The notes below the pieces were generated by a model, which saw only the letters and a list, made by a program, of their open reading frames with translations, was not told the DNA's origin and ran no database searches. From Allomuricauda ruestringensis DSM 13258 (GTDB taxonomy: Bacteria; Bacteroidota; Bacteroidia; Flavobacteriales; Flavobacteriaceae), in NCBI RefSeq assembly GCF_000224085.1, contig NC_015945.1, positions 1,933,501-1,997,500 of the forward strand: a DNA stretch of 64,000 nucleotides, written 5' to 3'. The translations under genes and the position numbers were made by a program. Positions 6,348 through 27,161 of the stretch are shown in pieces (the stretch's first letter is position 1; each line of letters opens with the position of its first letter).

Positions 6348-6390
6348 TAAAATTAGACCTAAGGGCTAGGGGATACTATGACAATTGTCA
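6348..6390 (-). promoter_or_regulatory. FNR-type class II promoter of usp1
   Basis: Read on the minus strand: palindrome CTGAC-AATT-GTCAT (core 6379-6390), then 23 bp, then a -7 element TAATTTTA (6348-6355), 22 bp before the usp1 ATG. The spacing is the same as in seven other promoters of this window. Confidence 0.72.
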
Positions 6391-6406
6391 GGTTTTGGAA
6401 AGTGAA

Positions 6407-7096
6407 TTAAAAACCCTCGACCACTTCCAAAAGTTTGCGTTCATCCTTAATTCCAATTTTTTTACCAGAAGTATGAATCAAACCTTTCTTTTTGAATTCG
6501 GAAATGATTCTAATGGCAGATTCGGTTGCAGTGCCCACCACGTTGGAAATGTCCTCTCTGGACAAAGTAAGTGCCAGAAAACCATCGGCATCTTCGCCAA
6601 AATTGTTCTGGAGGTACAGAAACGCCTCGGCCATGCGTTGCTTTACGGTTTTTTGGGAAATATTGACGATTACATCATCGGCCTCCTTTAAATCGTGGGC
6701 CATGTGTCGCAAAACCTCTAAAGTAAAATTAGGGTTCTTTTGGAGTGTATTTGTGATACTGTCTTTTGGTATAAAACAAACTTCCATATCGTTTACGGCA
6801 ACAGCGGAAAGATTGGTGATTTCTTGAGAAATCACCGAGCGTTGGCCCAGAACTTCGCCCTTGCTGGCCAATTTTACAATCTGATCTTTTCCGTTGGCGC
6901 TCAACTTGGAAAGTTTGGATACTCCGTTCCTTACACAATAGACCCCGTTGAGTTTATCACCCTCCTCAAATAAAGATTCACCCTTTTTTATGATCTTGGT
7001 GGTTTTGGTGTCGGAAACTTGCTTCAATTCCTCCTTGCTCATGGCACGGAGCGAGTTAAACTGTCGGATGATACAATTTTCACATCTACTTTCCAT
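6407..7096 (-). CDS. Crp/Fnr-family transcriptional regulator, likely oxygen/redox sensor
   Basis: A 229-residue regulator with a cyclic-nucleotide-type beta-roll (about 20-135), a dimer helix (about 120-150) and a winged helix-turn-helix (about 155-220). Cysteines are at 5, 8, 54 and 107. C5-x2-C8 and C107 ('MEVCFIP') match the positions of E. coli FNR C20, C23 and C122, but there is no counterpart of C29. The recognition helix 'TESAIRII' keeps the Glu (E192) and Arg (R196) that read TGA half-sites in FNR and CRP. The gene is divergent from ccoI, and a single TGAT-N4-ATCA palindrome sits midway between the two starts. It is the obvious candidate to bind the eight matching promoters in this window, including its own. 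Whether it carries an iron-sulfur cluster is uncertain. Confidence 0.9.
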   Translation of the reverse strand: MESRCENCIIRQFNSLRAMSKEELKQVSDTKTTKIIKKGESLFEEGDKLNGVYCVRNGVSKLSKLSANGKDQIVKLASKGEVLGQRSVISQEITNLSAVAVNDMEVCFIPKDSITNTLQKNPNFTLEVLRHMAHDLKEADDVIVNISQKTVKQRMAEAFLYLQNNFGEDADGFLALTLSREDISNVVGTATESAIRIISEFKKKGLIHTSGKKIGIKDERKLLEVVEGF

Positions 7097-7119
7097 AATG
7101 TTTTGCTTACCTGATTCGG

Positions 7120-7162
7120 CAAACTTAAGGGTTAAACATTTACGAATTACTGATAAATATCA
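7120..7162 (-). promoter_or_regulatory. FNR-type class II promoter of the fnr-like gene (autoregulation)
   Basis: Read on the minus strand: palindrome TGAT-ATTT-ATCA (7151-7162), 23 bp, then the perfect -7 element TAAGTTTG (7120-7127), 23 bp before the regulator's ATG. The palindrome is shared with the ccoI promoter. Confidence 0.7.
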
Positions 7163-7193
7163 TATTTTTAGGAAGAAGAGTATTACAAATTTG
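7151..7193 (+). promoter_or_regulatory. FNR-type class II promoter of the cco operon
   Basis: Palindrome CTGAT-AAAT-ATCAT (core 7151-7162), 23 bp, then CAAATTTG (7186-7193), one base off TAnnTTTG, and 22 bp to the ccoI ATG. The core is 53 bp from ccoI and 54 bp from the divergent regulator gene. Confidence 0.72.
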
Positions 7194-7215
7194 TACCAGG
7201 TAAAGCAAATGTGAA

Positions 7216-9600
7216 ATGACAGACTCGACCTGTTATCATTGTGGAGACGAGTGCGGTAAAAGTTACGTTCAGTTTGATGATAAAGATTTTTGTTGCAATG
7301 GTTGCAAAACCGTTTACGAGATTTTTACGTCCAATGGCTTGTCCACCTATTACGAAATAGAAGGCAAGGCAGGAACCACGCCTAACGAAATCCGTCAGAA
7401 ATACGATTTTTTGGACAACCAAGAAATTGTACAGAAACTTGTGGAGTTTGACGAAGAAGGCGTGCAGGTGGTGAGTTTGAGTATTCCCGCCATTCATTGC
7501 AGCTCCTGTATCTGGGTGCTGGAAAACCTGAACAAGCTACATTCGGCCATTAAAGTCTCTCAGGTCGATTTCCCAAAGAAAACCATCCGAGTTACCTATA
7601 AAACAGAAGATTTTTCCCTGAAAGCGCTAGTACTTTTGTTGGGCAGCATTGGGTACGAACCTTATATTTCTCTGGAGGAATACAACAAGAAAGCAAAAAA
7701 AGTAGACCGTTCCCTAATCTATAAGTTGGGTGTTGCGGGTTTTGCCTTTGGCAATGTAATGCTGTTCTCCTTTCCCGAGTATTTTGAAGTCGAAGAATTT
7801 TGGTTGGACCAATACAAGCAGGTTTTCCGCTGGTTGATGTTCGCCTTTTCCCTCCCTGTGGTGTTTTATGCTGGTCAAGATTATTTTATCTCGGCCTACA
7901 AGGGCATCCGTTCCAAATTATTGAATATTGATGTGCCCATTGCCTTGGGGATTTTGACTCTTTTTCTGAGAAGTACGGCTGATATTGTTTTTGATTTGGG
8001 TTCTGGCTTTTTTGATAGTCTCACGGGCTTGGTCTTTTTTCTGTTATTGGGGAAATTTTTTCAGCAAAAGACCTACGCCTACCTCTCATTTGAGCGGGAT
8101 TACAAATCCTATTTTCCCATAGCCGTTACCCGTTTGAAGCAAAATGGAGAAGAAGAAAACATTCAAATTTATAATATCAAAGTAGGGGATAGGATACTGA
8201 TTCGAAGCCACGAAATTATCCCTGTGGATTGCATCCTGATCAAAGGAAACGCAGAGATAGATTACAGTTTTGTAACGGGCGAATCCGAAGCAGTTTTTAA
8301 AGGATCGGGAGAAAAACTGTTTGCAGGCGGAAAACAGCTTTCAGGAGTTTTGGAAGTTAAAGTGTTAAAATCCGTTTCCCAAAGTTATTTGACGCAACTC
8401 TGGGGCAACTCCGTATTTTCCAAAGACAAGGCAAGTCAGTTCCAGACCCTTACCGATAGTATTGGAAAGCGATTCACCATTGCTGTTTTGAGTATTGCCA
8501 CTGTGGCCACCATTTTTTGGCTGATTTTTGATCCAAGTTTGGCACTTAACGTGTTCACCTCGGTATTGATTATCGCCTGTCCGTGTGCCATTGCCTTGGC
8601 GGCCCCATTTACCTTGGGAAATATGCTACGCATTTTTGGGAAACATAAATTCTATTTGAAGAATACCAATGTAATTGAAAGGCTTTCCAAAATAGGTACG
8701 GCCATTTTTGATAAAACAGGAACCCTGACCACCAATGTAAAAGACACCATCCATTATGAAGGAATGGAACTGACCGAAGAGGAAACAGCACTTTTAAAGA
8801 CAACCCTAAGGGCATCCAACCACCCGTTGAGCCGATCACTCTACACTATTTTAAAATCCAATGCCATCATGACTCTTGAGGAATTCCAAGAACATACCGG
8901 AAAAGGTATCGAGGGAAAATATAAGGAGCACTCCATAAAAGTGGGGTCGGCATCCTATGTGGGAGGGAGCAAGTCCAATACATTGACCAATACTTCGGTC
9001 TACGTAAGTGCCGATGAAGATTTTAAGGGACGGTTCGTGTTCAAAAACACCTATCGCGATGGGATGAGCCAAATTTTTGATGAGCTGTCCACCGATATGG
9101 AACTGGGCATTCTTTCGGGGGATAACGATGGGGAAAAAGAGCAGTTGCAAAAAGTACTTCCGGCAAAAACAAGAATGCTGTTCGACCAAAAACCCGAGGA
9201 TAAGTTGGAATATATCAAACATTTACAGGAAAAACACAAAGTTTTGATGGTGGGCGATGGTTTGAACGATGCGGGGGCCTTGGCCCAAAGCGATGTGGGT
9301 TTGGCCGTTTCGGAGAACATCAACGTGTTCTCGCCAGCTTGTGATGGCATTTTGGATGCAAATAGGTTGCGAATGCTGCCAAAGTTCATAAAACTGTCCA
9401 AAAAGTCCATTCGCATTATAAAAATGAGTTTTTTGTTGTCGCTCTGTTACAATGTCGTGGGATTGTATTTTGCCGTTACAGGTCAGTTGCAACCTGTGAT
9501 TGCTGCTATTCTGATGCCGTTGAGCTCTATCAGTATTGTGGTGTTCACCACCTTGGCGACCAATTACCTCGGTAAAGATTTAAAAATTTTAGAAAGCTGA
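7216..9600 (+). CDS. ccoI: Copper P1B-type ATPase for cbb3 oxidase assembly (CcoI/FixI)
   Basis: A 794-residue heavy-metal P-type ATPase of the inner membrane that supplies copper for the CuB centre of cbb3 oxidase. It starts with a Cys-rich metal-binding segment (C6, C9, C13, C26, C27, C30), then an HMA domain with CSSC at 95-98. The transmembrane ion site is C455-P456-C457. The phosphorylation motif DKTGTLT begins at D499, followed by the SNHPLSRS signature and the hinge GDGLNDAGAL. Length and the N-terminal Cys-rich extension fit the CcoI branch rather than CopA. It is the first gene of the cco operon, directly behind the FNR-type promoter, and ccoS follows 59 bp downstream. Confidence 0.95.
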   Translation: MTDSTCYHCGDECGKSYVQFDDKDFCCNGCKTVYEIFTSNGLSTYYEIEGKAGTTPNEIRQKYDFLDNQEIVQKLVEFDEEGVQVVSLSIPAIHCSSCIWVLENLNKLHSAIKVSQVDFPKKTIRVTYKTEDFSLKALVLLLGSIGYEPYISLEEYNKKAKKVDRSLIYKLGVAGFAFGNVMLFSFPEYFEVEEFWLDQYKQVFRWLMFAFSLPVVFYAGQDYFISAYKGIRSKLLNIDVPIALGILTLFLRSTADIVFDLGSGFFDSLTGLVFFLLLGKFFQQKTYAYLSFERDYKSYFPIAVTRLKQNGEEENIQIYNIKVGDRILIRSHEIIPVDCILIKGNAEIDYSFVTGESEAVFKGSGEKLFAGGKQLSGVLEVKVLKSVSQSYLTQLWGNSVFSKDKASQFQTLTDSIGKRFTIAVLSIATVATIFWLIFDPSLALNVFTSVLIIACPCAIALAAPFTLGNMLRIFGKHKFYLKNTNVIERLSKIGTAIFDKTGTLTTNVKDTIHYEGMELTEEETALLKTTLRASNHPLSRSLYTILKSNAIMTLEEFQEHTGKGIEGKYKEHSIKVGSASYVGGSKSNTLTNTSVYVSADEDFKGRFVFKNTYRDGMSQIFDELSTDMELGILSGDNDGEKEQLQKVLPAKTRMLFDQKPEDKLEYIKHLQEKHKVLMVGDGLNDAGALAQSDVGLAVSENINVFSPACDGILDANRLRMLPKFIKLSKKSIRIIKMSFLLSLCYNVVGLYFAVTGQLQPVIAAILMPLSSISIVVFTTLATNYLGKDLKILES

Positions 9601-9659
9601 TTTATGTCATTTTTTGAGGAATACCATCATAGTAGTTTTATCCCTAAATTCAGGCAGGT

Positions 9660-9869
9660 ATGAGTGTTATTTATGTGTTGTTGGCCATTAGCATAACGGT
9701 GGCCGTAATCTTTTTTGTAGCCTTTGTTTTCTCGGTAAAAAGCGGACAATACGATGACACCTATACCCCATCGGTAAGAATGTTGTTCGAGGATGAGGTG
9801 GTTAAGGACAAGGAAAAATCAAACCCAAATAAAAAGGAAATCAAACAAACTAAAAGTACAAACCAATAA
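9660..9869 (+). CDS. ccoS: cbb3 oxidase assembly protein CcoS
   Basis: A 69-residue protein with one N-terminal membrane helix (about 3-26) and the family signature 'SGQYDD..TPSVRML' (about 32-45). A lysine-rich tail follows. CcoS is needed to insert the haem and copper cofactors into the cbb3 catalytic subunit. The stop is 2 bp before the start of ccoNO, so translation is probably coupled. Confidence 0.9.
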   Translation: MSVIYVLLAISITVAVIFFVAFVFSVKSGQYDDTYTPSVRMLFEDEVVKDKEKSNPNKKEIKQTKSTNQ

Positions 9870-9871
9870 AT

Positions 9872-12055
9872 ATGGAAATACAACAGTTCCGTTACGATAA
9901 CAAAATCGTACAAAAGTTCTTATACGCTACCATTTTATGGGGCGTAGTGGGTATGTCAGTAGGCCTTTTGCTGGCCTTTATGTTTTTGTTCCCCAATGTT
10001 ACAGAGGGTATTTCATGGTTGAGTTTTGGGCGTTTGCGTCCATTACATACCAACGCCGTGATCTTTGCATTTGTGGGGAACGCCATTTTTGCAGGGGTGT
10101 ATTACTCGCTGCAACGCTTGCTGAAGGCAAGAATGTTCAGTGACGCCTTGAGCAACATCAACTTCTGGGGTTGGCAAATGATCATTGTCGCCGCAGCGAT
10201 CACACTTCCATTGGGGTATACCACCACCAAGGAATATGCCGAGTTGGAATGGCCCATAGATATTGCCATTGCCATTGTGTGGGTAGTCTTTGGATGGAAC
10301 ATGATCGGTACCATCCTCAAAAGGCGACAAAGGCACTTGTATGTGGCTATCTGGTTCTACTTGGCCACATTTGTTACCGTTGCCGTGCTGCACATTTTTA
10401 ATAGCTTGGAGCTACCGGTATCTGCACTGAAGAGTTATTCTGTGTATGCTGGTGTGCAAGATGCTTTGGTACAATGGTGGTACGGGCACAATGCGGTGGC
10501 ATTCTTTTTGACCACGCCTTTCTTGGGGTTGATGTACTACTTTGTTCCCAAAGCGGCGAACAGGCCCATTTACTCCTATAGACTGTCCATCGTCCACTTT
10601 TGGTCGTTGATATTCATTTATATCTGGGCAGGTCCCCACCACTTGTTGTATTCTTCCTTGCCCGATTGGGCACAGAACTTGGGTGTGGTATTCTCCATAA
10701 TGTTGCTGGCACCATCTTGGGGTGGTATGATCAACGGATTGTTGACCCTCCGTGGTGTTTGGGACAAAGTGCGTACCGATGCCACATTAAAATTTATGGT
10801 GGTAGCCATTACAGGTTATGGTATGGCTACCTTTGAAGGTCCCCTGTTGTCTTTGAAAAACGTAAATGCCATTGCTCACTTTAGTGACTGGATCATTGCC
10901 CACGTTCACGTAGGTGCTTTGGCCTGGAACGGATTCTTGACCTTTGGTATGATCTACTGGTTGGTGCCACGAATGTTCAAAACAAATTTGCACTCGAAAA
11001 GATTGGCGAACTTCCACTTCTGGATAGGAACCTTGGGTATTGTATTGTATGCCCTGCCCATGTACGTAGCTGGATTTACCCAAGCCTTGATGTGGAAAGA
11101 ATTCAACCCAGATGGTACCTTGGTATACGGTAACTTCTTGGAAACTGTTACACAAATCATCCCCATGTATTGGATGAGGGCAATCGGAGGTTCGTTGTAT
11201 ATCCTTGGTATGTTCGTGTTGCTTTACAATATCGTGATGACAATCAGGTCTGGTAGCAAGGTTGAAGATGAAGCAGCAGAAGCTCCGGCATTGGAACGTG
11301 TTGCAAAACGAAGAGTGGCTGGCGAAACCTTCCACAATTGGTTGGAAAGAAAACCGGTTCAGCTGACCATCTTGGCCACCGTGGCTATTTTGATTGGGGG
11401 TATTGTTCAGATTGTCCCAACAATTTTGGTGAAATCCAACATTCCGACCATTACGAGTGTTAAACCGTATACTCCACTGGAATTGGAAGGTAGGGACCTT
11501 TACATTCGAGAAGGTTGTGTGGGTTGTCACTCGCAAATGGTCAGACCATTCCGTAGTGAGGTGGAACGCTATGGCGAATATGCCAAAGCGGGGGAGTTTG
11601 TTTACGACCACCCATTCCTTTGGGGCAGTAAGCGTACAGGTCCAGACTTGTTGCGCGTTGGGGGCAAATACTCCGATAGCTGGCATTTAAACCACATGTA
11701 CGACCCTCAAAGTACCTCGGCAGGTTCCATAATGCCATCGTATGAGTGGTTGGTGACGGATGAACACGACCGTAGCGATGTTCAAGCTAAAATGGAGGCT
11801 ATGGTAAAATTGGGTGTACCATATACTGATGATGACATTGCCAACGCTCCGCAATCCATGGCAGAGCAAGCAGCCCAAATAGAGAAGAGCCTGTACACAG
11901 ACCCAGAATTCGAAAAAACCTACGAAGCGGATAAAAAATACGCAGAGGAAAACGGATTGGAATTTGTGGAAATGCGCGATCGCGAAATCGTAGCCTTGAT
12001 TGCTTATCTGCAACGATTGGGCACCGATATTAAGATTACTAATACTGAAGAATAG
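9872..12055 (+). CDS. ccoN: cbb3-type cytochrome c oxidase, fused subunits I and II (CcoN-CcoO)
   Basis: A 727-residue inner-membrane fusion of the catalytic CcoN and the mono-haem CcoO subunit, which are separate proteins in Proteobacteria. CcoN ligands are visible: H59 in 'RLRPLHTN' (haem b), H206 in 'WWYGHNAVAF' (CuB, beside Y204), H256/H257 in 'GPHHLL' (CuB), and H344/H346 in 'AHVHVGAL' (haems). After about residue 495 comes a single membrane helix and the CcoO part with haem-c site CVGCH (549-553) followed by 'SQMVRPF'. It reduces oxygen with high affinity and pumps protons. The fusion is usual in Bacteroidota. ccoQ starts 83 bp downstream. Confidence 0.96.
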   Translation: MEIQQFRYDNKIVQKFLYATILWGVVGMSVGLLLAFMFLFPNVTEGISWLSFGRLRPLHTNAVIFAFVGNAIFAGVYYSLQRLLKARMFSDALSNINFWGWQMIIVAAAITLPLGYTTTKEYAELEWPIDIAIAIVWVVFGWNMIGTILKRRQRHLYVAIWFYLATFVTVAVLHIFNSLELPVSALKSYSVYAGVQDALVQWWYGHNAVAFFLTTPFLGLMYYFVPKAANRPIYSYRLSIVHFWSLIFIYIWAGPHHLLYSSLPDWAQNLGVVFSIMLLAPSWGGMINGLLTLRGVWDKVRTDATLKFMVVAITGYGMATFEGPLLSLKNVNAIAHFSDWIIAHVHVGALAWNGFLTFGMIYWLVPRMFKTNLHSKRLANFHFWIGTLGIVLYALPMYVAGFTQALMWKEFNPDGTLVYGNFLETVTQIIPMYWMRAIGGSLYILGMFVLLYNIVMTIRSGSKVEDEAAEAPALERVAKRRVAGETFHNWLERKPVQLTILATVAILIGGIVQIVPTILVKSNIPTITSVKPYTPLELEGRDLYIREGCVGCHSQMVRPFRSEVERYGEYAKAGEFVYDHPFLWGSKRTGPDLLRVGGKYSDSWHLNHMYDPQSTSAGSIMPSYEWLVTDEHDRSDVQAKMEAMVKLGVPYTDDDIANAPQSMAEQAAQIEKSLYTDPEFEKTYEADKKYAEENGLEFVEMRDREIVALIAYLQRLGTDIKITNTEE

Positions 12056-12138
12056 AGAAAAAATCATGAACCAAGAGTCAAGACAGAAGCCATCAAAATA
12101 TAGTGCCTTGATTCTTGCATCAAAAATCTAATATAACC

Positions 12139-12327
12139 ATGTTGAAATTTGTAAAAGAACATATGGAAACCATTGATGGGATAGCCAACTACCCCATGGT
12201 TTCCCTGCTCATCTTCTTTGTCTTTTTCGTTCTCTTGTTCTGGTGGGTATTTACCGCTACCAAGGAACACATAAGGGAGATGTCCGAACTGCCATTGGAT
12301 AACGATGATCAACAACACAAACTATAA
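12139..12327 (+). CDS. ccoQ: cbb3 oxidase small subunit (CcoQ-like)
   Basis: A 62-residue membrane protein with one hydrophobic helix (about 16-36) and a charged tail, starting 'MLKFVKEHMETIDG'. Position between ccoNO and ccoP, size and topology fit CcoQ, which stabilises the oxidase complex; the sequence alone is too short for certainty. I chose the ATG at 12139. An earlier in-frame start at 12115 would add eight residues with no family resemblance. The stop is 4 bp before the ccoP start. Confidence 0.78.
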   Translation: MLKFVKEHMETIDGIANYPMVSLLIFFVFFVLLFWWVFTATKEHIREMSELPLDNDDQQHKL

Positions 12328-12331
12328 CATT

Positions 12332-13225: not shown

Positions 13226-13232
13226 GCAAACC

Positions 13233-13283
13233 GAACCTGATACGAAAAGCTGTGCCCCAAGAATTGGGGCCGGGTTCAGGTTC
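13233..13283 (+). other. Nested hairpin in the ccoP-ccoG intergenic RNA
   Basis: The outer arms GAACCTGA (13233-13240) and TCAGGTTC (13276-13283) pair perfectly. Inside them is a second perfect hairpin, GCCCCAA (13254-13260), loop GAA, TTGGGGC (13264-13270). No T run follows, so it is not a classical terminator. It could protect the upstream mRNA, act as a processing site or lower downstream expression. Confidence 0.55.
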
Positions 13284-13354
13284 TGGATAAGTTGCATCGA
13301 AACTCCCCTTGGGAGCGATGGTATCAAAACATTTATCCACAAACCACAAATGTG

Positions 13355-14764: not shown

Positions 14765-14775
14765 AAGATAATAAG

Positions 14776-15222: not shown

Positions 15223-15224
15223 TC

Positions 15225-15935: not shown

Positions 15936-15949
15936 AAATATAATCCAAA

Positions 15950-17278: not shown

Positions 17279-17312
17279 GAATCGCATGAAACCAATCAAA
17301 AATGCAATCCGA

Positions 17313-18137: not shown

Positions 18138-18154
18138 TTTATTGTTTTTTTAGG

Positions 18155-19513
18155 TTAAACGGTCATGGAAAATATTCGGGTATTTGGTTTTTGTCGGTGC
18201 AGTTTAAGGTCAAATGCCATGCTAATGTTTCTTACAAAAGGCCTTCCTTTGTCGGTTACCTTAATTTTGGTGTCGTTTATTTCTACAAGTCCATCTGCTT
18301 CCAATTCGGATAAGTTGCCCAAGATATTTCCAAAATCCACCACTTCTTTTTCCTCGGTGTTCCAAGTAGTTTCGAATTGGCACATTATATTAAGAATATG
18401 CTTTCTCAAGATTTCATCTTCCGTATTTAGGATGTGCCCTCTAAAAATAGGGATAACTCCGTGCGAAACCAAATTCTGATATTCTTCCACATTCTTTACA
18501 TTTTGGGCAAATCCATACCAGCTATCGCTAATGCTCGATGCTCCCAAACCGATCATAAGTTTGGTTTTTGATGCGGTGTAACCCATAAAGTTTCGGTGCA
18601 GGGTGCCATTTCCCAGTGCTTTGTACAAACTATCGGTGGGTAGGGCAAAATGATCCATGCCAACATCCTTGTAACCGAACCCCGTGAGCATTTTTTTGCC
18701 CATTTCGTACTGTGCTTTTTTCTCCACGGACGATGGAAGGTCTTCATTTTTATAGCCACGTTGTCCGTTGCCTTTTATCCAAGGCACGTGAGCATAACTA
18801 TAAAAAGCGATTCTATCGGGTTTTATAGCATTGGTTTTTATCATGGTATTCTCCACATTGGCACAATCTTGAAATGGCAATCCATAGATGATGTCGTGTC
18901 CAACCGAGGTATATCCAATTTCTCTGGCCCATTCGGTAACATTTTTCACGTTCTCAAAGGGCTGTATCCGGTTTATGGCACGCTGAACGGTGAGGTTATA
19001 ATCCTGTACACCAAAGGAAACCCTTCTAAACCCTACATCGTAAAGCGCTTGTAAATGTTCTTTTGTGGTGTTGTTGGGATGGCCCTCAAAACTAAATTCA
19101 ACTTCGTCCGCCTTGTTTCCCAGGCGCACAATGCCTTCGATGAGCATTTTTAAATTTTCCGGAGAAAAAAAGGTAGGGGTGCCACCACCCAAATGGAGTT
19201 CCTTTATCAGAGGTTTGGAACCCAACAAGTCGCAATACAGTTCCCATTCCTTTAAAACTGCCTTTATGTAGGGTAGTTCAACCTCGTGTCTTTTGGTAAT
19301 GCGTTTATGGCATCCGCAAAAGGTGCACAGATTTTCACAAAAGGGGAGGTGTATGTATAAACTGATTCCTTCCTTTTGGCTTTCCCGATATGCTTTTAGT
19401 ACACTAGAATTCCATTTTTTTCCAGAAAAACTGTCCAGATCCCAATAGGGTACGGTTGGGTAACTGGTATATCGGGGTCCGGGAACATTGTATTTTTGAA
19501 CTAATCCACACAT
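18155..19513 (-). CDS. hemN: Oxygen-independent coproporphyrinogen III oxidase (HemN)
   Basis: A 452-residue radical-SAM enzyme that decarboxylates coproporphyrinogen III to protoporphyrinogen IX without oxygen, supplying haem for cbb3 oxidase under low oxygen. The N-terminal signature 'PGPRYTSYPT' is followed by the iron-sulfur motif C59-x3-C63-x2-C66 ('CENLCTFCGC') and the SAM-binding 'GGGTPTF'. The HemN C-terminal domain is present. These features separate it from the shorter HemW. I prefer the ATG at 19513, since an earlier in-frame start (19543) overlaps the -7 element. usp2 follows 17 bp downstream. Confidence 0.93.
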   Translation of the reverse strand: MCGLVQKYNVPGPRYTSYPTVPYWDLDSFSGKKWNSSVLKAYRESQKEGISLYIHLPFCENLCTFCGCHKRITKRHEVELPYIKAVLKEWELYCDLLGSKPLIKELHLGGGTPTFFSPENLKMLIEGIVRLGNKADEVEFSFEGHPNNTTKEHLQALYDVGFRRVSFGVQDYNLTVQRAINRIQPFENVKNVTEWAREIGYTSVGHDIIYGLPFQDCANVENTMIKTNAIKPDRIAFYSYAHVPWIKGNGQRGYKNEDLPSSVEKKAQYEMGKKMLTGFGYKDVGMDHFALPTDSLYKALGNGTLHRNFMGYTASKTKLMIGLGASSISDSWYGFAQNVKNVEEYQNLVSHGVIPIFRGHILNTEDEILRKHILNIMCQFETTWNTEEKEVVDFGNILGNLSELEADGLVEINDTKIKVTDKGRPFVRNISMAFDLKLHRQKPNTRIFSMTV

Positions 19514-19540
19514 CGTTGTATATATCATTACATTAAAATT

Positions 19541-19583
19541 CAAAATTACCTTAGGCAGGTTGCATAGAACATGATAATTGTCA
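19541..19583 (-). promoter_or_regulatory. FNR-type class II promoter of hemN-usp2
   Basis: Read on the minus strand: CTGAC-AATT-ATCAT (core 19572-19583), 23 bp, then the perfect -7 element TAATTTTG (19541-19548), 27 bp before the hemN ATG. Confidence 0.75.
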
Positions 19584-19623
19584 GGATTGGTGTGTAGAAT
19601 GGCAAAAAATGATTTTTAATGCC

Positions 19624-19666
19624 TGATGAGTATCATATTTTTCGTTATCCGAGCAAAGTATCTTTA
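19624..19666 (+). promoter_or_regulatory. FNR-type class II promoter of the GCS2/CBS gene
   Basis: CTGAT-GAGT-ATCAT (core 19624-19635), 23 bp, then TATCTTTA (19659-19666), 32 bp before the ATG at 19699. It is back-to-back with the hemN promoter, but each gene has its own palindrome. Confidence 0.7.
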
Positions 19667-19698
19667 AAGGACTTTGACTTACAATTAACTTAAGCTCA

Positions 19699-21543
19699 AT
19701 GGGAGAACATATCAGAAAAAGCACGTTTAGTGAAGCGGAACGGAAAGCGTTTGTCCAACATCTTATTGATGACGTCCAAACCTTGGAGCAAATGATTGCA
19801 GAAGGTATGATCGAAAATGATATCGTTAGGATTGGAGCCGAACAGGAAATGTGCCTGGTAAATGGCGATTTTAGGCCATCCCCCAAAGCTATGGAAATTA
19901 TCGAAGATGTTAACGACGACCACTTTACCACCGAATTTGCAACTTATAATATTGAGGCCAATCTCGACCCGTATAAGTTGGAGAAGGATTGCTTCGCCAA
20001 TATGGAGCAACAGCTACGAAAATTGTTGGACAAGGTGAAGAGAACTGCTGATGAACATGGTGTCAAGATTATTTTGACCGGTATCCTCCCTACTATAAGC
20101 AAGGAAGAGCTTGGTATGGATTTTATGACCCCAATACCCCGGTATTATCGGATAAATGAAGTTTTAAGGGCTTGGAGAGGGAATGATTTTTCGCTCAGGA
20201 TCAAAGGGGCAGATGAACTTTCACTGCATCATGACTCGGTACTTTTTGAAGCCTGTACTACCAGTTTTCAACTCCATTTGCAGATATCCCCCGATGACTT
20301 TATCAAAAGTTACAATTGGGCACAGGCCATTTCCGGTCCTGTTTTGGGAGTGTGCTGCAATTCTCCTTTGCTTTTGGGAAAAGAACTTTGGAGAGAGACC
20401 AGAATAGCCCTATTCCAACAAAGTTTGGATACCAGGGTTTGGACAAAAGCGGTAAAGGAACAAGTGGCCAGGGTAGGCTTTGGGGAGCACTGGCAAAAGG
20501 ATTCTGTGGCCGAGATTTTTAAACAAGACATTTCCTCGCACCGAATTTTACTTACAAAACCCATTACAAAAGGTTCGTTGGATGTGTTGCGGCATGGAGA
20601 AATCCCAAAATTGGAAGCACTGAGCCTGTTCAATAGTACAGTGTACCGATGGAATCGCCCATGCTACGGAGTGGGCAATGGAAAGCCGCATTTACGAATT
20701 GAAAACCGGTACATTCCCTCTGGCCCAACGGTAATCGATGAAATGGCCAATTTTGCTTTTTGGGTAGGGCTTATGGCCGGAAGACCGGAAAAGTATGACG
20801 ATATGCCTAACGTTATGGACTTTAGAGTAGCCAAGCTCAACTTTTTTAGAGCCGCCATGAGTGGAAGGCACACGGTGTTTTCATGGTTGGACAAGACTAT
20901 GACGGTAAAAGAAATTGTCAAAAAAGTATTGTTGCCCATAGCTTACAATGGATTGCGAAAATTCGATATTGATGAAAAGGATATTAATAAGCTCTTGGGC
21001 ATAATTGAAGCAAGAACGAAAAACGGTACAGGGGCCGAGTGGCAGATCAAAAATTTTAGGGAACTTAAAAAACAGATGAAGCTGGACAGTGCCATTGTGC
21101 AATTGACCAAATCCATGTACAATAACCAAGAGACCCAAACTCCCGTTCATCAATGGAAACCAATAAGGGGAATGGCCAAGACCAAGGAGTCGTTTCAATG
21201 GGTAAGACAGATCATGTCCACAAAGCTCATGAAGCTGTACGAAGATGATTATGCCAATTTGGCCATAGCCATTATGCAATGGAACAATATCCACCATATT
21301 CCTGTAGAAAACGGAAAAGGGAAATTGGTGGGGCTGCTTACCTGGAGCCATATCGAAAAGTTCGAAAAACTGGACAAGAAAGAAGCCAAGGTGTCTGATA
21401 TCATGGTCAAGGACGTAATTACCGTACAGCCCAGAACTGAAATAGAAACCGCAAGAAAAATGATGCACGATCACCAAATAGGATGTTTGCCGATTTGTGT
21501 GGATACCCATATTGTGGGAATCATCAGTAAAGTAGATTTGTAG
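19699..21543 (+). CDS. Glutamate-cysteine ligase-like (GCS2 family) protein with C-terminal CBS pair
   Basis: A 614-residue cytoplasmic protein. Residues about 20-470 resemble the GCS2 family of carboxylate-amine ligases, with the acidic metal/glutamate motif 'GAEQE' (46-50) and further motifs such as 'HHDSVLFEACTTSFQLHLQI' and 'RIENRYIPSGPTV'. Residues about 500-614 form two CBS repeats ('VRQIMSTKLMKLYEDD', 'VSDIMVKDVITVQPRTE'), which usually sense adenine nucleotides. It may join glutamate to an amine under energy control, but its substrate is unknown and it need not make gamma-glutamylcysteine. An aspartoacylase-like gene starts 2 bp downstream. It is driven by an FNR-type promoter. Confidence 0.85.
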   Translation: MGEHIRKSTFSEAERKAFVQHLIDDVQTLEQMIAEGMIENDIVRIGAEQEMCLVNGDFRPSPKAMEIIEDVNDDHFTTEFATYNIEANLDPYKLEKDCFANMEQQLRKLLDKVKRTADEHGVKIILTGILPTISKEELGMDFMTPIPRYYRINEVLRAWRGNDFSLRIKGADELSLHHDSVLFEACTTSFQLHLQISPDDFIKSYNWAQAISGPVLGVCCNSPLLLGKELWRETRIALFQQSLDTRVWTKAVKEQVARVGFGEHWQKDSVAEIFKQDISSHRILLTKPITKGSLDVLRHGEIPKLEALSLFNSTVYRWNRPCYGVGNGKPHLRIENRYIPSGPTVIDEMANFAFWVGLMAGRPEKYDDMPNVMDFRVAKLNFFRAAMSGRHTVFSWLDKTMTVKEIVKKVLLPIAYNGLRKFDIDEKDINKLLGIIEARTKNGTGAEWQIKNFRELKKQMKLDSAIVQLTKSMYNNQETQTPVHQWKPIRGMAKTKESFQWVRQIMSTKLMKLYEDDYANLAIAIMQWNNIHHIPVENGKGKLVGLLTWSHIEKFEKLDKKEAKVSDIMVKDVITVQPRTEIETARKMMHDHQIGCLPICVDTHIVGIISKVDL

Positions 21544-21545
21544 CT

Positions 21546-22748
21546 ATGACTTTAGTTCACAATATAGCATGGGATGAAACAGTTAGGGTTGATAGAATCA
21601 TTGATCATGTTAAAGGTAAGAAGGGAGGTCCGACCGTAGTTTTTTTTGGGGGTATTCACGGGAACGAAACAGCCGGTGTTTTTGCTCTAAAAACTGTTTT
21701 TAATGAAATCAGAGCAAAAAAAATCGGCATAAGCGGGGAAGTCTATGCCATTTCTGGAAATTTGGGCGCCCTGAAAAGTAGACAGCGTTTTCAAGATGAG
21801 GACCTGAACAGGATTTGGTTTCCGGAAAGGATAGAACGTATTGTTGGAAATAAAGAAATTCATCATAACGAGGAGAAAGAACTGAACCAGCTTTATCGGT
21901 TGATTCAGGACATCCTAAAAAACAGTAATCCTCCCTTTTATTTTTTGGACCTTCATACCACATCGAGCCATACCTCGCCTTTTATGGTGCTCAACGATAG
22001 TTTGCTGAACCGTACGTATGCATCCAATTATCCATTGCCCATTATCTTGGGGATAGAGGAGTATCTTAAAGGGGCTTTATTGAGCTATATCAATGAACTG
22101 GGCTATGTTTCCCTTGGTTTTGAAAGTGGGCAGCACAATGATGGTGAAGCCATACAAAATAGTATTGAGTTTATTCGCTATTCCTTGGCATTGACCCGGT
22201 CCGTTGATTTTTCGGAACGGGAGAAAGGGCGATTAAGGAATAAAATAGCAGCATCTGGAACGGTATCGCATAAGTTTTACGAAATATACCATCAGTATGA
22301 TATTGGTCCGCAAACCACTTTTAAAATGTTTCCGGGCTTTGTCAATTTTCAAATAGTGCCAAAGGATGAAAGTTTGGCACTTGTTGATGGTGTGGTGTTA
22401 AAAACGACCAAAAAACGGCAGATTTTTATGCCTCTATACCAAAAACAAGGGAATGAAGGCTTTTATTTTATTAGGCCCATACCTAAAATTTGGTTGTGGC
22501 TGTCCAAAAAATTAAGAAGGTTCAAAGTAGACCATATTTTAGTGAAATTGCCCGGTGTGGAATGGGAAACGGATATGAAAGATACCCTGATGGTTGACCA
22601 GAGGGTGGCCCGTTTTTTCACCAAATCATTTTTTCACTTGTTGGGTTACAGGGCAAGAAAATTGGATAAAAACCATTTAGTGGCCAAAAATAGGGAGAGT
22701 GCTTCAAAATCTGAGGAATATAAGGGAGCGGCTTGGTTCAAAAAATAA
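21546..22748 (+). CDS. Succinylglutamate desuccinylase/aspartoacylase-family zinc hydrolase
   Basis: A 400-residue M14-like zinc enzyme. Zinc ligands are visible as H38-x2-E41 in 'GGIHGNETAG' and H137 in 'LDLHTTSSH'. The 'EDLNRIW' motif (85-91) and the 'GFESGQH' catalytic segment follow. The family removes acyl or aminoacyl groups from amino acids or peptides. The C-terminal part beyond about 300 is longer than in AstE and has no function I can name. It starts 2 bp after the GCS2/CBS gene, so the two are one operon and may make and cleave the same amide. Convergent with tonB. Confidence 0.85.
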   Translation: MTLVHNIAWDETVRVDRIIDHVKGKKGGPTVVFFGGIHGNETAGVFALKTVFNEIRAKKIGISGEVYAISGNLGALKSRQRFQDEDLNRIWFPERIERIVGNKEIHHNEEKELNQLYRLIQDILKNSNPPFYFLDLHTTSSHTSPFMVLNDSLLNRTYASNYPLPIILGIEEYLKGALLSYINELGYVSLGFESGQHNDGEAIQNSIEFIRYSLALTRSVDFSEREKGRLRNKIAASGTVSHKFYEIYHQYDIGPQTTFKMFPGFVNFQIVPKDESLALVDGVVLKTTKKRQIFMPLYQKQGNEGFYFIRPIPKIWLWLSKKLRRFKVDHILVKLPGVEWETDMKDTLMVDQRVARFFTKSFFHLLGYRARKLDKNHLVAKNRESASKSEEYKGAAWFKK

Positions 22749-22775
22749 AAAGGCCCAAGAAATTGACTTGGACCT
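22741..22775 (-). terminator. Terminator of the tonB-like gene
   Basis: On the minus strand the hairpin AGGTCCAAG / CTTGGGCCT (one mismatch, 7-base loop) is followed by a T-rich run (TTTTTATTTTT). It overlaps the 3' end of the convergent aspartoacylase-like gene. Confidence 0.6.
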
Positions 22776-22800
22776 CTATCTTCGGGCTATGTTTCGGTTT

Positions 22801-23529
22801 TCAGTTTTGCATTACAAAATTTATAGGTATGCTATACTTTACACTTACTTTTTTTCCACGTTGTTCGCCTGGTTTTACTTTGGGCAAAGATGCAATAATA
22901 CGTTCGGCCTCTTTTTCCAATAGCTTATCCGGACCTCTTTTTTGTATACCGGTCACCTGACCGTTTGAATCGATTACAAACTGTACGTGGACCCTACCTG
23001 TTATCCCCATTTCCAAAGCAGATGGTGGATAATTGAAATTGGCTTTGATATGCTCCTGCACCTTTTGGTTAAAGCAATCTTTGCGTTCTGCTTGAGTTTG
23101 TAGATGCTCGCATCCAGGGAACACAGGAACATATTCAATTACTGCAAAGGGAACTACAATTTCTTCCTCCACTTCCTCCACTTCAACATCTTCGATTTTT
23201 ACAACAACATCCTCGATGTAGGTTTCTTGACTGCTTTCGGTACTTTCAATTACGGTTTCTTTCACATCTTCCACATCCTCCACAATCTCAATTACATCAG
23301 GTGCAGATGGCGGGGGCGGGGGCGGTGCGGTTCTGATTATTTCGGTAATGGGTACATCTTCCTTAAGTTCGTCGGTTACCTGCACAACTTCCGAAACTTT
23401 GGATTCCTCTTCATAGAACTTTACTTCAAAGGATTGCCATGTCATGAACAACACCGAAGTAAGTCCTATCATGAAATATAGACTGCTGTTGCGTCCAATT
23501 TCTGCGTTTGAGTTCTTTTTTGGTTTCAT
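22801..23529 (-). CDS. TonB-family energy transducer with acidic linker
   Basis: A 242-residue protein with one N-terminal membrane anchor (about 16-33), a periplasmic linker, and a C-terminal TonB domain (about 150-242; 'GITGRVHVQFVID', 'VKYSIPINF'). TonB transmits proton-motive force to outer-membrane receptors. The linker holds a short 'PPPPPP' run but is otherwise rich in Glu, Asp and Val (about 85-140) instead of the usual Pro-Lys repeats. No exbB or exbD is adjacent; a set lies at 41.8-44.1 kb. Its promoter (23552-23594) has the FNR-type layout, so it may be a low-oxygen-specific TonB. Confidence 0.88.
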   Translation of the reverse strand: MKPKKNSNAEIGRNSSLYFMIGLTSVLFMTWQSFEVKFYEEESKVSEVVQVTDELKEDVPITEIIRTAPPPPPPSAPDVIEIVEDVEDVKETVIESTESSQETYIEDVVVKIEDVEVEEVEEEIVVPFAVIEYVPVFPGCEHLQTQAERKDCFNQKVQEHIKANFNYPPSALEMGITGRVHVQFVIDSNGQVTGIQKRGPDKLLEKEAERIIASLPKVKPGEQRGKKVSVKYSIPINFVMQN

Positions 23530-23551
23530 GACTGCTACTATTTAACTATGT

Positions 23552-23594
23552 TAAAGGTAGCGCTCTTCAAAATCAGAAAATATGATAATAATCA
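23552..23594 (-). promoter_or_regulatory. FNR-type class II promoter of the tonB-like gene
   Basis: Read on the minus strand: CTGAT-TATT-ATCAT (core 23583-23594), 23 bp, then TACCTTTA (23552-23559), 22 bp before the ATG. Confidence 0.7.
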
Positions 23595-23621
23595 GGTTGA
23601 GCCCTTCGGCTACGCTCAGGA
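23594..23621. repeat. Dispersed palindromic repeat, 'CTTCGGCTACGCTCAG' variant
   Basis: TTGAGC ... GCTCAG arms around CCTTCGGCTAC. It belongs to the intergenic repeat family seen again near 39.1, 39.6, 58.4, 61.3 and 62.6 kb and directly abuts the tonB palindrome. Confidence 0.5.
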
Positions 23622-23747
23622 TAAACTATGGTCGAAACAGCTTTGTTTTTTGAATTACTGATATCTCTACTGGGTGTTAGAGGATAAATCATTCTTCGTA
23701 GTATGATACTTGTCATAGATTCACCTTTTCAATAAAAGCTATGTTCT

Positions 23748-24716
23748 TTAAGCAATTTTCTTCTTTTGGTTTTCCCAGATGAGTGCAGCGGCGCCGCAAA
23801 TAGCCGCTGTTTTTCCCTCCATGCTGGAGTGTAGGAGCTTTACCTTTCCCTTGTACACATCTAAAAGGAACCCGTTAAAGTATTTTTCCAAAGGGGTCAT
23901 GATCCACTTGCCGCTATTGGTGAGCCCACCCATTAAAATAAATGCTTCAGGTTGGGTAAATGCCGTAAAGTTGGCCAATGCCTGTGCCATAATTCGGGCT
24001 GTATAGTCAAAAGCTTTAAGAGCAATTTCGTCCCCTTCTTCCGCGGCTTGGGTAATGTCCTCCCCATGGAGGTCGTTATAGGCGATGTTTCTAAACCTGC
24101 TATCCACCATATATTTGCTCTGCATATACATAACAGTTCGCTTTAATCCGGTAGCGGATACATAAGCCTCCAACCCTCCTTTTACGCCAAGTCCGGTCAA
24201 CCTGCCATCTCCCATGGTCATGTCCACATGGCCCAATTCGCCTGCGAATCCGTCATATCCATCTATAAGTTGACCATTGGCCACTATTCCGGCGCCAAAA
24301 CCTGTACCTAGTGTAATTACAATAAAATCGGTCATGTTTTTAGCACCTCCAAAGAGCATTTCGCCCAATGCGGCAGCACTGGCGTCGTTCATTATGCGAA
24401 TGGGCATGTCCATTCTTTGCTTAAGGAGTTTAACCAAAGGAACACTGCCTTTCCACACTAAATTACTGGCATTTTCTATGGTTCCATTTTTACTGGAAGC
24501 ATTAGGGGCGCCGATACCGCAACCTATTACATTGGCATGCTCTCCAAACTGTGCCAAAAGCTCATCGGAAGTAGATTTTATTTTATCAAGATAAGCATCC
24601 AAGTTTGGGAATTCCTTGGTTCTAAAAAAAGTTTTTTCGTGGCATTTACCAGTTTCATCAACCAATCCAATTTTGGTTTTGGTTCCTCCAATATCTATTC
24701 CGATTACTAAATCCAT
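23748..24716 (-). CDS. ROK-family sugar kinase, glucokinase-like, lacking the zinc-site cysteines
   Basis: A 322-residue ROK protein (from the ATG at 24716; an upstream GTG at 24728 would add four residues). The ATP-binding loop 'GIDIGGTKTKIG' opens the protein, the catalytic Asp lies in 'MNDASAAALGE', and 'LGTGFGAG' and 'GELGH' are present. After GELGH the family normally has a CxCGxxGC zinc site; here the segment reads 'GRLTGLGVKGGLEAYVS', with all three expected cysteines replaced. It probably phosphorylates glucose or a related hexose. It is a single gene. Its promoter shows a -7 element TATATTTA but no FNR-type palindrome at the shared spacing. Confidence 0.85.
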   Translation of the reverse strand: MDLVIGIDIGGTKTKIGLVDETGKCHEKTFFRTKEFPNLDAYLDKIKSTSDELLAQFGEHANVIGCGIGAPNASSKNGTIENASNLVWKGSVPLVKLLKQRMDMPIRIMNDASAAALGEMLFGGAKNMTDFIVITLGTGFGAGIVANGQLIDGYDGFAGELGHVDMTMGDGRLTGLGVKGGLEAYVSATGLKRTVMYMQSKYMVDSRFRNIAYNDLHGEDITQAAEEGDEIALKAFDYTARIMAQALANFTAFTQPEAFILMGGLTNSGKWIMTPLEKYFNGFLLDVYKGKVKLLHSSMEGKTAAICGAAALIWENQKKKIA

Positions 24717-24835
24717 ATTTAAAGTCACATTATTTTACGGCTTTTAAATATAACTATTATGAAGGCAATAAAATAACCTCCTTGACTTTTATGACCGCTG
24801 ATTTTTTGCTAATATCATGGAAAAGTTGAAAACCC

Positions 24836-24878
24836 TGACTTCTGTCATGTTTTAGATCATGGAGCGGTTCTACTTTTG
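24836..24878 (+). promoter_or_regulatory. FNR-type class II promoter of usp3-pfkA
   Basis: CTGAC-TTCT-GTCAT (core 24836-24847), 23 bp, then the perfect -7 element TACTTTTG (24871-24878), 34 bp before the ATG at 24913. The promoter lies inside any coding frame started at 24859, which argues for the later start. Confidence 0.75.
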
Positions 24879-24912
24879 GATACAAGAATTGAAATCAATA
24901 AATAAAATAGGT

Positions 24913-25704
24913 ATGAGCAGTTTAAATAAAATATTAATTCCGTTTGATTTTTCCGAGGCATCAGTAAATGCCTTGGAGTATGTGGTCAATTTTGTGGGTA
25001 CAGAGAGAGCTATAAATATCTTGGGCCTTTATGTAGGCGTTATGCCCATTAGTGAATCCGATAGTGAAAAATTAAAAAGAGATTTTTCCAAATTATTGGA
25101 TTCTTTCAATGTAAAATTGAAAGTGGACCCTGAATTCACTACCGATACGGGTGAAGTAATCAGCACTATTCTTTCCGCCCAAGAAAAGAGCAATGCAGAT
25201 TTGATCATGATGGGCACTATGGGCGATAAAATTACGGATGAAGCCATTACCAACACATCGAAATTGGTGTTGGAGGCCAATTGCCCGGTAATATCAATTC
25301 CTTATGGAACCGCCATTAAAGAACCTAAAAACATTGCCTTGGTAATGGGGGGCGAAAAAATTGATGACAAGAACGTCTTGGGAACACTATTGGACATTGC
25401 CAGAGCATTTGATGCCCGTATCCATGTGCTTACCATTTATAAGGATTCCGTTTATGATGAAGAAGCCATCAAAGAATCCAATGAAAATTTGTTGGAATAC
25501 TATTTGGAGCACTTTTATGCCGACCACACCTTCACTAAAAATGAAGATGTGGAACAAGGTATTTTGGACTACATCAACGAAAAAAGCATTGATCTGTTAA
25601 CCATATTGCCCCGGAACCATAACGAAAAAAGTATACCTTCGGAAGGGAGATTGACAAAATTGCTGACCCTGCACTCCGAGATACCGGTATTGGCCTTGGA
25701 TTAA
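24913..25704 (+). CDS. Universal stress protein, tandem USP-like domains (usp3)
   Basis: A 263-residue protein of two USP-like domains ('NKILIPFDFSEASVNAL' at the start). Neither half keeps the G-x2-G-x9-GS nucleotide signature: the first has 'GTMGDKITDEAITNTS' and the second 'PRNHNEKSIPSEGR'. It therefore probably does not bind ATP in the usual way. An upstream in-frame ATG at 24859 exists, but the -7 element lies inside it, so the ATG at 24913 is chosen. It is the first gene of a transcript that continues into 6-phosphofructokinase 79 bp downstream. Confidence 0.85.
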   Translation: MSSLNKILIPFDFSEASVNALEYVVNFVGTERAINILGLYVGVMPISESDSEKLKRDFSKLLDSFNVKLKVDPEFTTDTGEVISTILSAQEKSNADLIMMGTMGDKITDEAITNTSKLVLEANCPVISIPYGTAIKEPKNIALVMGGEKIDDKNVLGTLLDIARAFDARIHVLTIYKDSVYDEEAIKESNENLLEYYLEHFYADHTFTKNEDVEQGILDYINEKSIDLLTILPRNHNEKSIPSEGRLTKLLTLHSEIPVLALD

Positions 25705-25783
25705 ATCTTTACCTTTGAAGATGCTGTCGCTGCCGATAGATTCGCACCACAGTTTGTCCGAACATCTTTAAGATTCAATAAAA

Positions 25784-27103
25784 GTGAACGATAAAAATAG
25801 ATTTTCCATAGAAAGCTTGGGGGCGTCTCAGTATACGTCGCCGCTTCAGCTTAGTACCGTTAAGGGAGACCACATATTCAGCTTTGTAAGTGAGTCGGAT
25901 AGGTTGGTGTTCGACCCCTCCATACAATATTACAATCAATGTTTAAATGATGGGGAGGCACCTATTTGTATGGAAAAAGCAGGTCCAAGACAAAACATCT
26001 TTTTTGATGCCAAAAACACTACTGCGGCAATAGTCACCTGTGGCGGTCTTTGCCCAGGAATCAACAATGTGATTCGTGGATTGGTAATGGCCCTGCACTA
26101 TTTTTATGGGATCAAAAAAATTATTGGGATCCCCTATGGTTATGAAGGCCTAAATCCTGAAAAAGGACATGATTTCGTAGAATTGACACCGGACAAGGTA
26201 AAGGACATCCATCAATTTGGGGGTACTTTTTTAGGTTCGTCCAGAGGCGAGCAAGATGTGTCTGTAATGGTGGACACCCTTGAAAATAACCGTGTGGATA
26301 TGTTATTTGCCATTGGTGGAGATGGAACTTTGAAGGGGGTAAATGCCATTGGTGAGGAAATTGCCAAAAGAAATGGGAAAATCAGTGTAGTGGGAATTCC
26401 AAAGACCATAGACAACGATATTGATCTTATTGACGAATCCTTTGGCTTTCAGACCGCTTTTGACGTAGCAAGTCCCATTTTACGCGATGCCCATAATGAA
26501 GCAACAGGAGCTTATAATGGTATCTCCATTATTAAATTAATGGGTAGGGATAGTGGTTTTATTGCTGCTTCGGCCGCTTTGGCCATGCCCGTCGTTAATT
26601 TTGTACTGATTCCCGAAATGGATTTTTCCCTTGAGGGTGAAGAAGGCTTCTTAAAAGTTTTGGAAAAGCGTCTACAAGAAAAAAAACATGCCGTTATTGT
26701 GGTGGCAGAAGGTGCGGGACAACAACTTTTTAAAGACAGAAAGATGGTAAAGGATGCATCGGGCAATGTACAGCACGAGGATATTGGTGTTTTCCTAAAG
26801 GAAAAAATTATAGAATACTTTAAAGAAAAAAGGCCAGTGACCATTAAGTACATCGACCCTAGCTATATTGTGCGGTGTGCCCCGGCCAACTCCAGCGATA
26901 GTGTTTATTGCAGTGGATTGGCTTATCATGCCGTACACGGAGCAATGGCCGGAAAGACCAAGTTTGTTGCCAGTAGGATAAACAATCGTTATGTGTATTT
27001 GCCTGTTGACGAAGTCACTAAAAAGAGAAAGAAAATTGATTTGGAAGGCGAGTTCTGGTTCTCTGTACTGCAAAGCACAGGTCAGCCGTTTTTCTTGGGA
27101 TAA
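25784..27103 (+). CDS. pfkA: 6-phosphofructokinase, long (group III-like) form
   Basis: A 439-residue phosphofructokinase catalysing the committed step of glycolysis. It is longer than the 320-residue bacterial PfkA because of an N-terminal extension of about 80 residues. Key motifs are 'GGLCPGINNVIRG' (87-99), GGDGT (178-182) and PKTIDND (206-212). The Gly after GGD points to ATP as donor, where PPi enzymes have Asp. The Lys of PKTIDND is shared with PPi enzymes and with plant and trypanosome ATP enzymes. The start is GTG at 25784. It is 79 bp behind usp3 and probably co-transcribed from the FNR-type promoter, which would raise glycolysis when oxygen is low. Confidence 0.9.
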   Translation: MNDKNRFSIESLGASQYTSPLQLSTVKGDHIFSFVSESDRLVFDPSIQYYNQCLNDGEAPICMEKAGPRQNIFFDAKNTTAAIVTCGGLCPGINNVIRGLVMALHYFYGIKKIIGIPYGYEGLNPEKGHDFVELTPDKVKDIHQFGGTFLGSSRGEQDVSVMVDTLENNRVDMLFAIGGDGTLKGVNAIGEEIAKRNGKISVVGIPKTIDNDIDLIDESFGFQTAFDVASPILRDAHNEATGAYNGISIIKLMGRDSGFIAASAALAMPVVNFVLIPEMDFSLEGEEGFLKVLEKRLQEKKHAVIVVAEGAGQQLFKDRKMVKDASGNVQHEDIGVFLKEKIIEYFKEKRPVTIKYIDPSYIVRCAPANSSDSVYCSGLAYHAVHGAMAGKTKFVASRINNRYVYLPVDEVTKKRKKIDLEGEFWFSVLQSTGQPFFLG

Positions 27104-27118
27104 GAACCGGTTTTTAAC

Positions 27119-27161
27119 TGACAATTATCATTAAATTTTATCTATAGTAGTCATAGATTTG
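27119..27161 (+). promoter_or_regulatory. FNR-type class II promoter of hpf
   Basis: CTGAC-AATT-ATCAT (core 27119-27130), 23 bp, then the perfect -7 element TAGATTTG (27154-27161), 21 bp before the ATG at 27183. Confidence 0.75.

Follow-up and report, generated by a model that had tools for sequence, protein, structure and literature searches.

Which regulator acts on a promoter element that recurs with one fixed spacing within 64 kb of the genome of Allomuricauda ruestringensis DSM 13258? The stretch as a whole, termed the window below (64,000 nucleotides; contig NC_015945.1, positions 1,933,501–1,997,500), belongs to a single-contig genome of 3.84 Mb for which the nearest named relatives are Muricauda/Flagellimonas. 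The element consists of the palindrome TGAY-N4-RTCA, a gap of 23 bp (N23), and a -7 box of the form YAnnTTTR. The reading preferred here, judged from sequence comparisons to have a probability of about three in four, is one fixed promoter grammar with exchangeable sensors: an iron-sulfur (Fe-S) variant of FNR, and a FixL-like kinase paired with a fusion of a receiver domain to a CRP-type protein (receiver-CRP fusion).

A predicted operator and a promoter box at fixed spacing

Searched on both strands, TGAY-N4-RTCA-N23-YAnnTTTR occurs nine times in the window, compared to 0.01 occurrences expected from shuffles, and the bare palindrome TGAY-N4-RTCA occurs 15 times (4.36 expected). An earlier note on this DNA had listed eight such sites; all eight are present with a spacing of exactly 23 bp, though the total was too low, a ninth site at 9598–9640 (+) having been overlooked. 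Its estimate of about four bare palindromes in 64 kb agrees with the computed value, as does its count of flanks (C before and T after in seven of the eight); with the ninth site included, C lies 5′ and T lies 3′ of the palindrome in 8/9 window sites, the exception being the copy before the fnr-like gene. In a scan of spacings from 0 to 59 within the window, N23 alone gave more than one YAnnTTTR match, and the match at spacing 0 is a T-rich run directly after a palindrome. One palindrome (7151–7162) has a -7 box at 23 bp on both sides (window 7120–7193), towards the fnr-like gene and towards ccoI, and the same two-sided arrangement occurs in 75/80 loci from relatives; a single dimer on this shared palindrome could probably serve one polymerase at a time. 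Three other palindromes of the same type in the window (2216–2227, 2411–2422, and 23704–23715) are without an N23 -7 box on either side.

With the reversed pattern as the background control throughout, the genome as a whole holds 33 matches, compared to 0 for the control. When gaps of 10–40 bp were allowed and only TA-type -7 boxes were counted, 29 of 54 matches fell at N23 and the next largest spacings had four each; the four matches at N22 may be a minor spacing class or chance. The genome-wide enrichment before genes that the earlier note had proposed to look for was far above random: 29/33 palindromes lie between open reading frames (ORFs), compared to 13.5% for positions picked at random from these stretches, and 24/33 sites have an ORF of at least 90 amino acids on the same strand no more than 150 bp away, compared to 2.8% of random positions. 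Among the 80 loci from relatives (up to 20.7 kb each), N23 accounts for 320 matches; smaller peaks lie at spacings 0 (42), 17 (16), and 34 (9), and almost every other spacing has 0–5. The search of related genomes, likewise proposed earlier, returned 2461 matches vs. 122 for the control across 149 genomes of Flavobacteriaceae (a single genome per genus, counted without correction for phylogeny) and 820 vs. 70 in 119 genomes of the class, 116 of which lie outside the family (761 vs. 64). An enrichment of ~20-fold over the control makes the regulon predictable in most of the sampled Flavobacteriaceae genomes. It could be argued that the sites are due to chance or are a by-product of promoter composition, as -7-like octamers are frequent in A/T-rich intergenic DNA and the reversed control still yields its 122 family matches, but the counts in the window, the genome, and the family, together with the single spacing, refute this explanation and leave it next to no probability, as the earlier note had claimed for the fixed-spacing copies.

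Class II control, with the dimer centred near -41 as the term is used for CRP/FNR activators, is already known for FNR and FixK. The sites share the TAnnTTTG -7 box of flavobacterial sigma-A promoters, and in the accessible text of PMC9723704 this box is located at -12 to -5 in Flavobacterium psychrophilum; no activator site is described in the main text of that paper, from which the words crp, palindrom, and fnr are absent. With N23, this location puts the palindrome at -47 to -36, centred on -41.5, in agreement with the -41 of the earlier note, and the nine sites are predicted class II CRP/FNR operators whose position is derived from the F. psychrophilum box. A dimer at -41.5 would contact RNA polymerase and substitute for the upstream promoter element, such that the Bacteroidota -7 box TAnnTTTG would suffice.

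FNR itself recognizes operators with the consensus TTGAT-N4-ATCAA. The TGAY-N4-RTCA core of that consensus is retained here and the outer T is not: the base 5′ of TGAY is T in 2/33 genome sites and 0/9 window sites, while the base 3′ of the palindrome is T in 27/33 genome sites, which makes the operator asymmetric and leaves the FNR-type label it had been given without its outer bases. The alignment of the FNR-like protein encoded in the window (6407–7096, −) with A. fischeri (Aliivibrio fischeri) FNR shows the Glu and Arg of the recognition helix kept and the Ser replaced by Ile195. As residues of this helix contact the operator in FNR, Ile195 instead of Ser fits the missing outer T.

Predicted targets and candidate sensors

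The predicted window targets comprise the cbb3 oxidase, ccoI, hemN, universal stress proteins (Usp), tonB, a CBS-domain protein, and hpf. Elsewhere in the genome the predicted targets include a MlaE permease, a DUF2267 protein, and more Usp-like proteins, as well as ORFs that, named by reading their sequences, resemble Dps, pyruvate phosphate dikinase, and c-type cytochromes. The best reading of the window sites is a low-oxygen activation regulon, which would unite the cbb3 oxidase and its copper pump with an oxygen-independent heme step, universal stress proteins, and ribosome hibernation. According to the accessible text of PMC9723704, the cbb3 oxidase and heme-synthesis enzymes of F. psychrophilum are up on oxygen limitation. 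At the lxa locus of Burkholderia cenocepacia, low oxygen induces several universal stress proteins (PMC9104464, in its accessible part), so that usp genes are common to both systems, although that organism belongs to another phylum and Anr and FixLJ are discussed there. If the sites belonged instead to a carbon- or stress-responsive CRP-type regulator such as MalR, they would have no part in an oxygen response; the accessible part of PMC8510549 does assign Flavobacteriales CRP/FNR homologues to MalR and thus places them under carbon sensing, and targets such as usp and the ORFs resembling Dps and phosphoenolpyruvate-utilising enzymes fit general stress. The core targets, however, are the cbb3 oxidase, ccoI, and hemN, the cysteine set of the FNR-like protein is conserved, the PAS domain of a kinase is FixL-like, and the cbb3 oxidase responds to oxygen limitation in F. 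psychrophilum, all of which render a regulator of the MalR kind quite improbable.

The FNR-like protein has the CRP/FNR fold with a HTH_Crp domain (matches to cNMP_binding and HTH_Crp_2), and among solved structures A. fischeri FNR chains are closest to it in sequence. FNR of E. coli and A. fischeri, a [4Fe-4S] oxygen sensor and class II activator, is the nearest known system, from which the protein differs, beyond Ile195 and the dispensable outer T of TTGAT, in its score and its cysteines. On the curated Fnr model NF008365 it reaches 112.9 bits, under the cut-off of 228, and it does not carry the FNR hallmark of three N-terminal cysteines and one beta-roll cysteine: the CxxC (C5, C8) and C107 are present, the third N-terminal position is occupied by Asn14, and a beta-roll strand carries an additional cysteine, Cys54. 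All four residues (C5, C8, C54, and C107) are conserved without exception in 12 diverse sequences (31–62% identity to the first) and in 47 aligned sequences, and they occur together in 321 of 328 pooled sequences, a pool that retains near-duplicates and many close relatives. Three of the seven exceptions were predicted without the N-terminus, two lack all four cysteines, and two (L159 and L160) have Phe at 54, each with four N-terminal cysteines when the whole open frame is read. A separate paralogue family (L325, L326, L328, and L332, from genomes G179, G212, G239, and G273) has C-x2-C-x4-C, Cys at the 107 position, Phe at 54, and a fifth cysteine before the beta-roll. Cys54 is found where the further N-terminal cysteines are missing, as would be expected if it replaces one of them as a ligand. 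A structure model (mean predicted local distance difference test [pLDDT] score, 83.2) places residue 54 on strand 51–57 and residue 107 on strand 104–110, two strands that lie side by side in the CRP beta-roll. The first candidate sensor is therefore described by its residues as a putative oxygen-labile [4Fe-4S] protein, with C5, C8, C107, and Cys54 as the probable ligands and Cys54 in the role of the third N-terminal cysteine of FNR.

Three CRP-type proteins are encoded among the sites of this genome, one of them in the window and the other two, both fusions, at 442,031 and 3,138,154. Both fusions carry a full-length receiver ahead of the cNMP-binding and helix-turn-helix domains in one chain (Response_reg, cNMP_binding, and HTH_Crp_2). 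A further HTH_Crp match lies at 1,735,446 and another falls below the cut-off. The fusion at 3,138,154 forms a pair with a kinase (3,136,680–3,139,203), the PAS domain of which has FixL as its top match in the set of solved structures (E 2e-14), the ligand His of FixL being aligned to a His. Within the 30 best-scoring fusion matches, to which the kinase survey was confined, a PAS kinase accompanies the fusion in 30/30 loci and the heme-histidine position is His in 30/30; the position of Arg220, in the numbering of FixL, is Arg in 26/30 and Lys in this genome. The FixL likeness makes it likely that the PAS domain binds heme. The kinase would phosphorylate the receiver-CRP fusion, forming the second sensor, in effect a FixL with FixJ and FixK fused, and the two sensors would read the same operator, each binding it, activating from it, and responding to oxygen. 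Fusions of nearly full length are present outside the family as well (e.g., 44% identity over residues 1–347 in G334).

Proposed regulator exchange at retained operators

Site numbers in the 149 family genomes follow the regulator content. The genomes with the FNR-like protein (n = 96; matches listed down to about 1e-25), with a fusion (n = 74; both kinds pooled), or with a second paralogue were identified manually from these match lists. The mean number of sites per genome was 28.7 with both regulator types (43 genomes), 12.2 with the FNR-like protein only (53 genomes), 18.0 with a fusion only (31 genomes), and 1.2 with neither (22 genomes; control, 0.55; one outlier of 10), and the FNR-like protein is unmatched at E 0.001 in all eight family genomes with zero sites. 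Two genomes with partial matches of 39–41% (G165 and G186) were classed with neither regulator, though G165 encodes a divergent FNR-like protein and its close ccoN is preceded by one exact site. G263, for which neither regulator was scored, has ten sites, a weak best match to the FNR-like protein (3.7e-12), and ccoN-like genes that are 32–34% identical. The idea that a standalone CRP protein of any kind can read the site was rejected, as the one in G156 lacks the cysteine set and that genome has a single site.

The earlier note had the regulator at 6407–7096 activating all of the promoters. Much of this claim stands, including the palindrome at the class II position, the low-oxygen gene set, and the location of the FNR-like gene inside the cluster with a site in its own promoter. 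Its exclusive role does not, as two receiver-CRP fusions, each among further sites, are encoded in the genome and sites before cco, hemN, and hpf remain in genomes without the FNR-like gene. This retention was followed in seven fusion-only genomes, which were selected for clustered sites and covered in the stretches around the clusters; an exact site precedes the ccoN unit in 7/7, hemN in 6/6 found, and hpf in 3/3 found. The fusion gene lies within the covered stretches in five of the seven, where it adjoins a kinase gene and several consecutive usp genes that have sites, and one of the seven (G257) also has a distant CRP protein without the cysteine set. Of all the evidence, retention of the sites without the FNR-like gene speaks most strongly for an ability of the fusion to assume the targets of the FNR-like protein, and it would be a clear example of one regulator replacing another while the operators stay fixed, though where both regulators are present either may be the one that acts at the window sites.

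It is conceivable, if unlikely, that the FNR-like protein alone activates all window promoters and that the fusions read only their own islands. Such a division would explain why C precedes TGAY in 8/9 window sites vs. 0/9 sites in the island of the 442,031 fusion, the cores of which are richer in G/C, and FNR-only genomes do keep sites around the fnr-like gene (e.g., 4/7 in G285). Of the FNR-only and fusion-only genomes, 15/53 and 15/31, respectively, were covered, with loci from 30 of the listed sites each. The exact sites before ccoN and hemN in fusion-only genomes argue the other way, as does the family-wide flank, C being equally common 5′ of the palindrome in loci from FNR-only genomes (0.42 of 31 sites) and fusion-only genomes (0.42 of 83 sites). 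As a sign of FNR-only control, a 5′ C was consequently rejected; it holds in this genome and fails family-wide.

Several observations weigh against a grammar with exchangeable oxygen sensors. Across the genome, C precedes TGAY in 8/9 window sites vs. 2/24 other sites, a difference suggesting that the regulators may divide the sites. Over the first ten residues of the FNR-like model, C5 and C8 among them, the mean pLDDT is 45, so that the model does not establish the cluster geometry, and a His in a PAS domain is no proof of heme. A second FNR-like paralogue with the cysteines, or a relative of it, is present in 5/31 fusion-only genomes, the remaining 26 having a mean of 17.2 sites. Among the 22 genomes with neither regulator, G165 alone has a close CcoN match (78%), the others being divided into two with CcoN matches ~33% identical, two with none, and 17 with weak oxidase matches only; as sensors and cbb3 oxidase co-occur, the correlation with site number may be partly one of lifestyle, and with one genome per genus the counts are uncorrected for phylogeny. 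Lastly, the kinase beside the 442,031 fusion (kinase and fusion, G000:C1:439480-443110; L031:11481-15111) has two PAS domains and one GAF domain, and the best match of one PAS is to blue-light LOV photoreceptors (1e-31), with the flavin-binding cysteine of LOV domains kept. A site lies 151 bp upstream of this kinase gene, and light or flavin redox may possibly control the same operator type through it, such that not every fusion need respond to oxygen.

The grammar with exchangeable sensors may reach further than the family. In its widest form, which is tentative and falls somewhat short of an even chance, a rigid grammar (a dimer at -41.5, 23 bp, and a -7 box) would be common to the Bacteroidia, with chemically unrelated sensors exchanged upon it, an Fe-S FNR with its fourth cluster ligand shifted out of the N-terminal loop to the beta-roll (Cys54), a FixL-like heme kinase with its receiver-CRP fusion, and, in the genome studied here, a LOV kinase with a second receiver-CRP fusion; the sensors would have been swapped or lost while the cbb3 and hemN operators stayed. 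A counterpart exists in Rhizobium leguminosarum, where hFixL-FxkR-FixK and FnrN provide dual oxygen sensing at the cbb3 operon (PMC7888657, accessible part). As in the rhizobial FixL-FixJ-FixK/FnrN systems, two predicted oxygen sensors converge on the cbb3 operon and the kinase PAS has the ligand-histidine position of FixL, but here the receiver and the CRP output form a single protein, without a separate FixJ and FixK, and the two routes appear interchangeable at the same operator. Neither a receiver-CRP fusion nor a flavobacterial FNR regulon was found in the literature covered, which included few subscription papers, and thus does not prove their absence, as well as the accessible parts of PMC4999443 and PMC1183210. 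As far as this literature shows, the Bacteroidota operator grammar, the displaced cysteine, and an alternative reader made up of a receiver-CRP fusion and a FixL-like kinase are new. The papers found say little on transcriptional oxygen sensing in Bacteroidota, and the candidate sensors pose clear questions, namely whether Cys54 holds an Fe-S cluster and whether a receiver domain switches a CRP dimer.

Genes of the window and of the 442,031 island

The first site in the window (6348–6390, −; palindrome 6379–6390, -7 element 6348–6355) precedes usp1, a universal stress protein gene (5417–6325, −; Pfam Usp). The fnr-like gene has its site at 7120–7162 (−), with the palindrome in common with the ccoI site (7151–7193, +). 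The ccoI gene (7216–9600, +; E1-E2_ATPase and ATPase-cat_bd) encodes a copper P-type ATPase for the cbb3 oxidase, and its name is that of the earlier note, retained because the gene sits beside ccoN. The ninth site, identified by the motif search before a ccoS and ccoN operon, ends 19 bp upstream of the ATG at 9660 of an ORF of 69 amino acids (9660–9869, +), presumably ccoS-like. The ORF that follows (9872–12055, +), which we take to be a ccoN(O)-type cbb3 oxidase subunit, has 77–85% identical ccoN counterparts in seven other genera.

The remaining sites were all recovered by the motif search. The site at 19541–19583 (−) precedes hemN (18155–19543, −), an oxygen-independent coproporphyrinogen III oxidase gene (TIGR00538, 426 bits; cut-off, 325); the ORF is counted from its first TTG, the real start is probably later, and the distance from site to start varies with the choice among three ATGs. 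On the opposite strand, the site at 19624–19666 (+) precedes the gene of the CBS-domain protein (19699–21543, +; Pfam CBS), for which GCS2 is the name used in the earlier note. A TonB C-terminal domain protein (tonB; 22801–23529, −) has its site at 23552–23594 (−). The ORF of usp3 (24859–25704, +; Pfam Usp) overlaps its site (24836–24878, +), and its start is probably at 24913, behind the promoter, with the ATG at +34. Similarly, the ORF of the hpf-like ribosome hibernation factor (27159–27482, +; Ribosomal_S30AE) begins within its site (27119–27161, +), the start probably being the ATG at 27183, at +21 from the site.

Around the fusion at 442,031, nine sites are present within G000:C1:428000-468000 (L031 and L032). 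The neighbours of this fusion include usp genes, the MlaE permease, the DUF2267 protein, and Hsp20-like and P-type-ATPase-like ORFs, a gene content reminiscent of the mycobacterial DosR or Burkholderia lxa gene sets.

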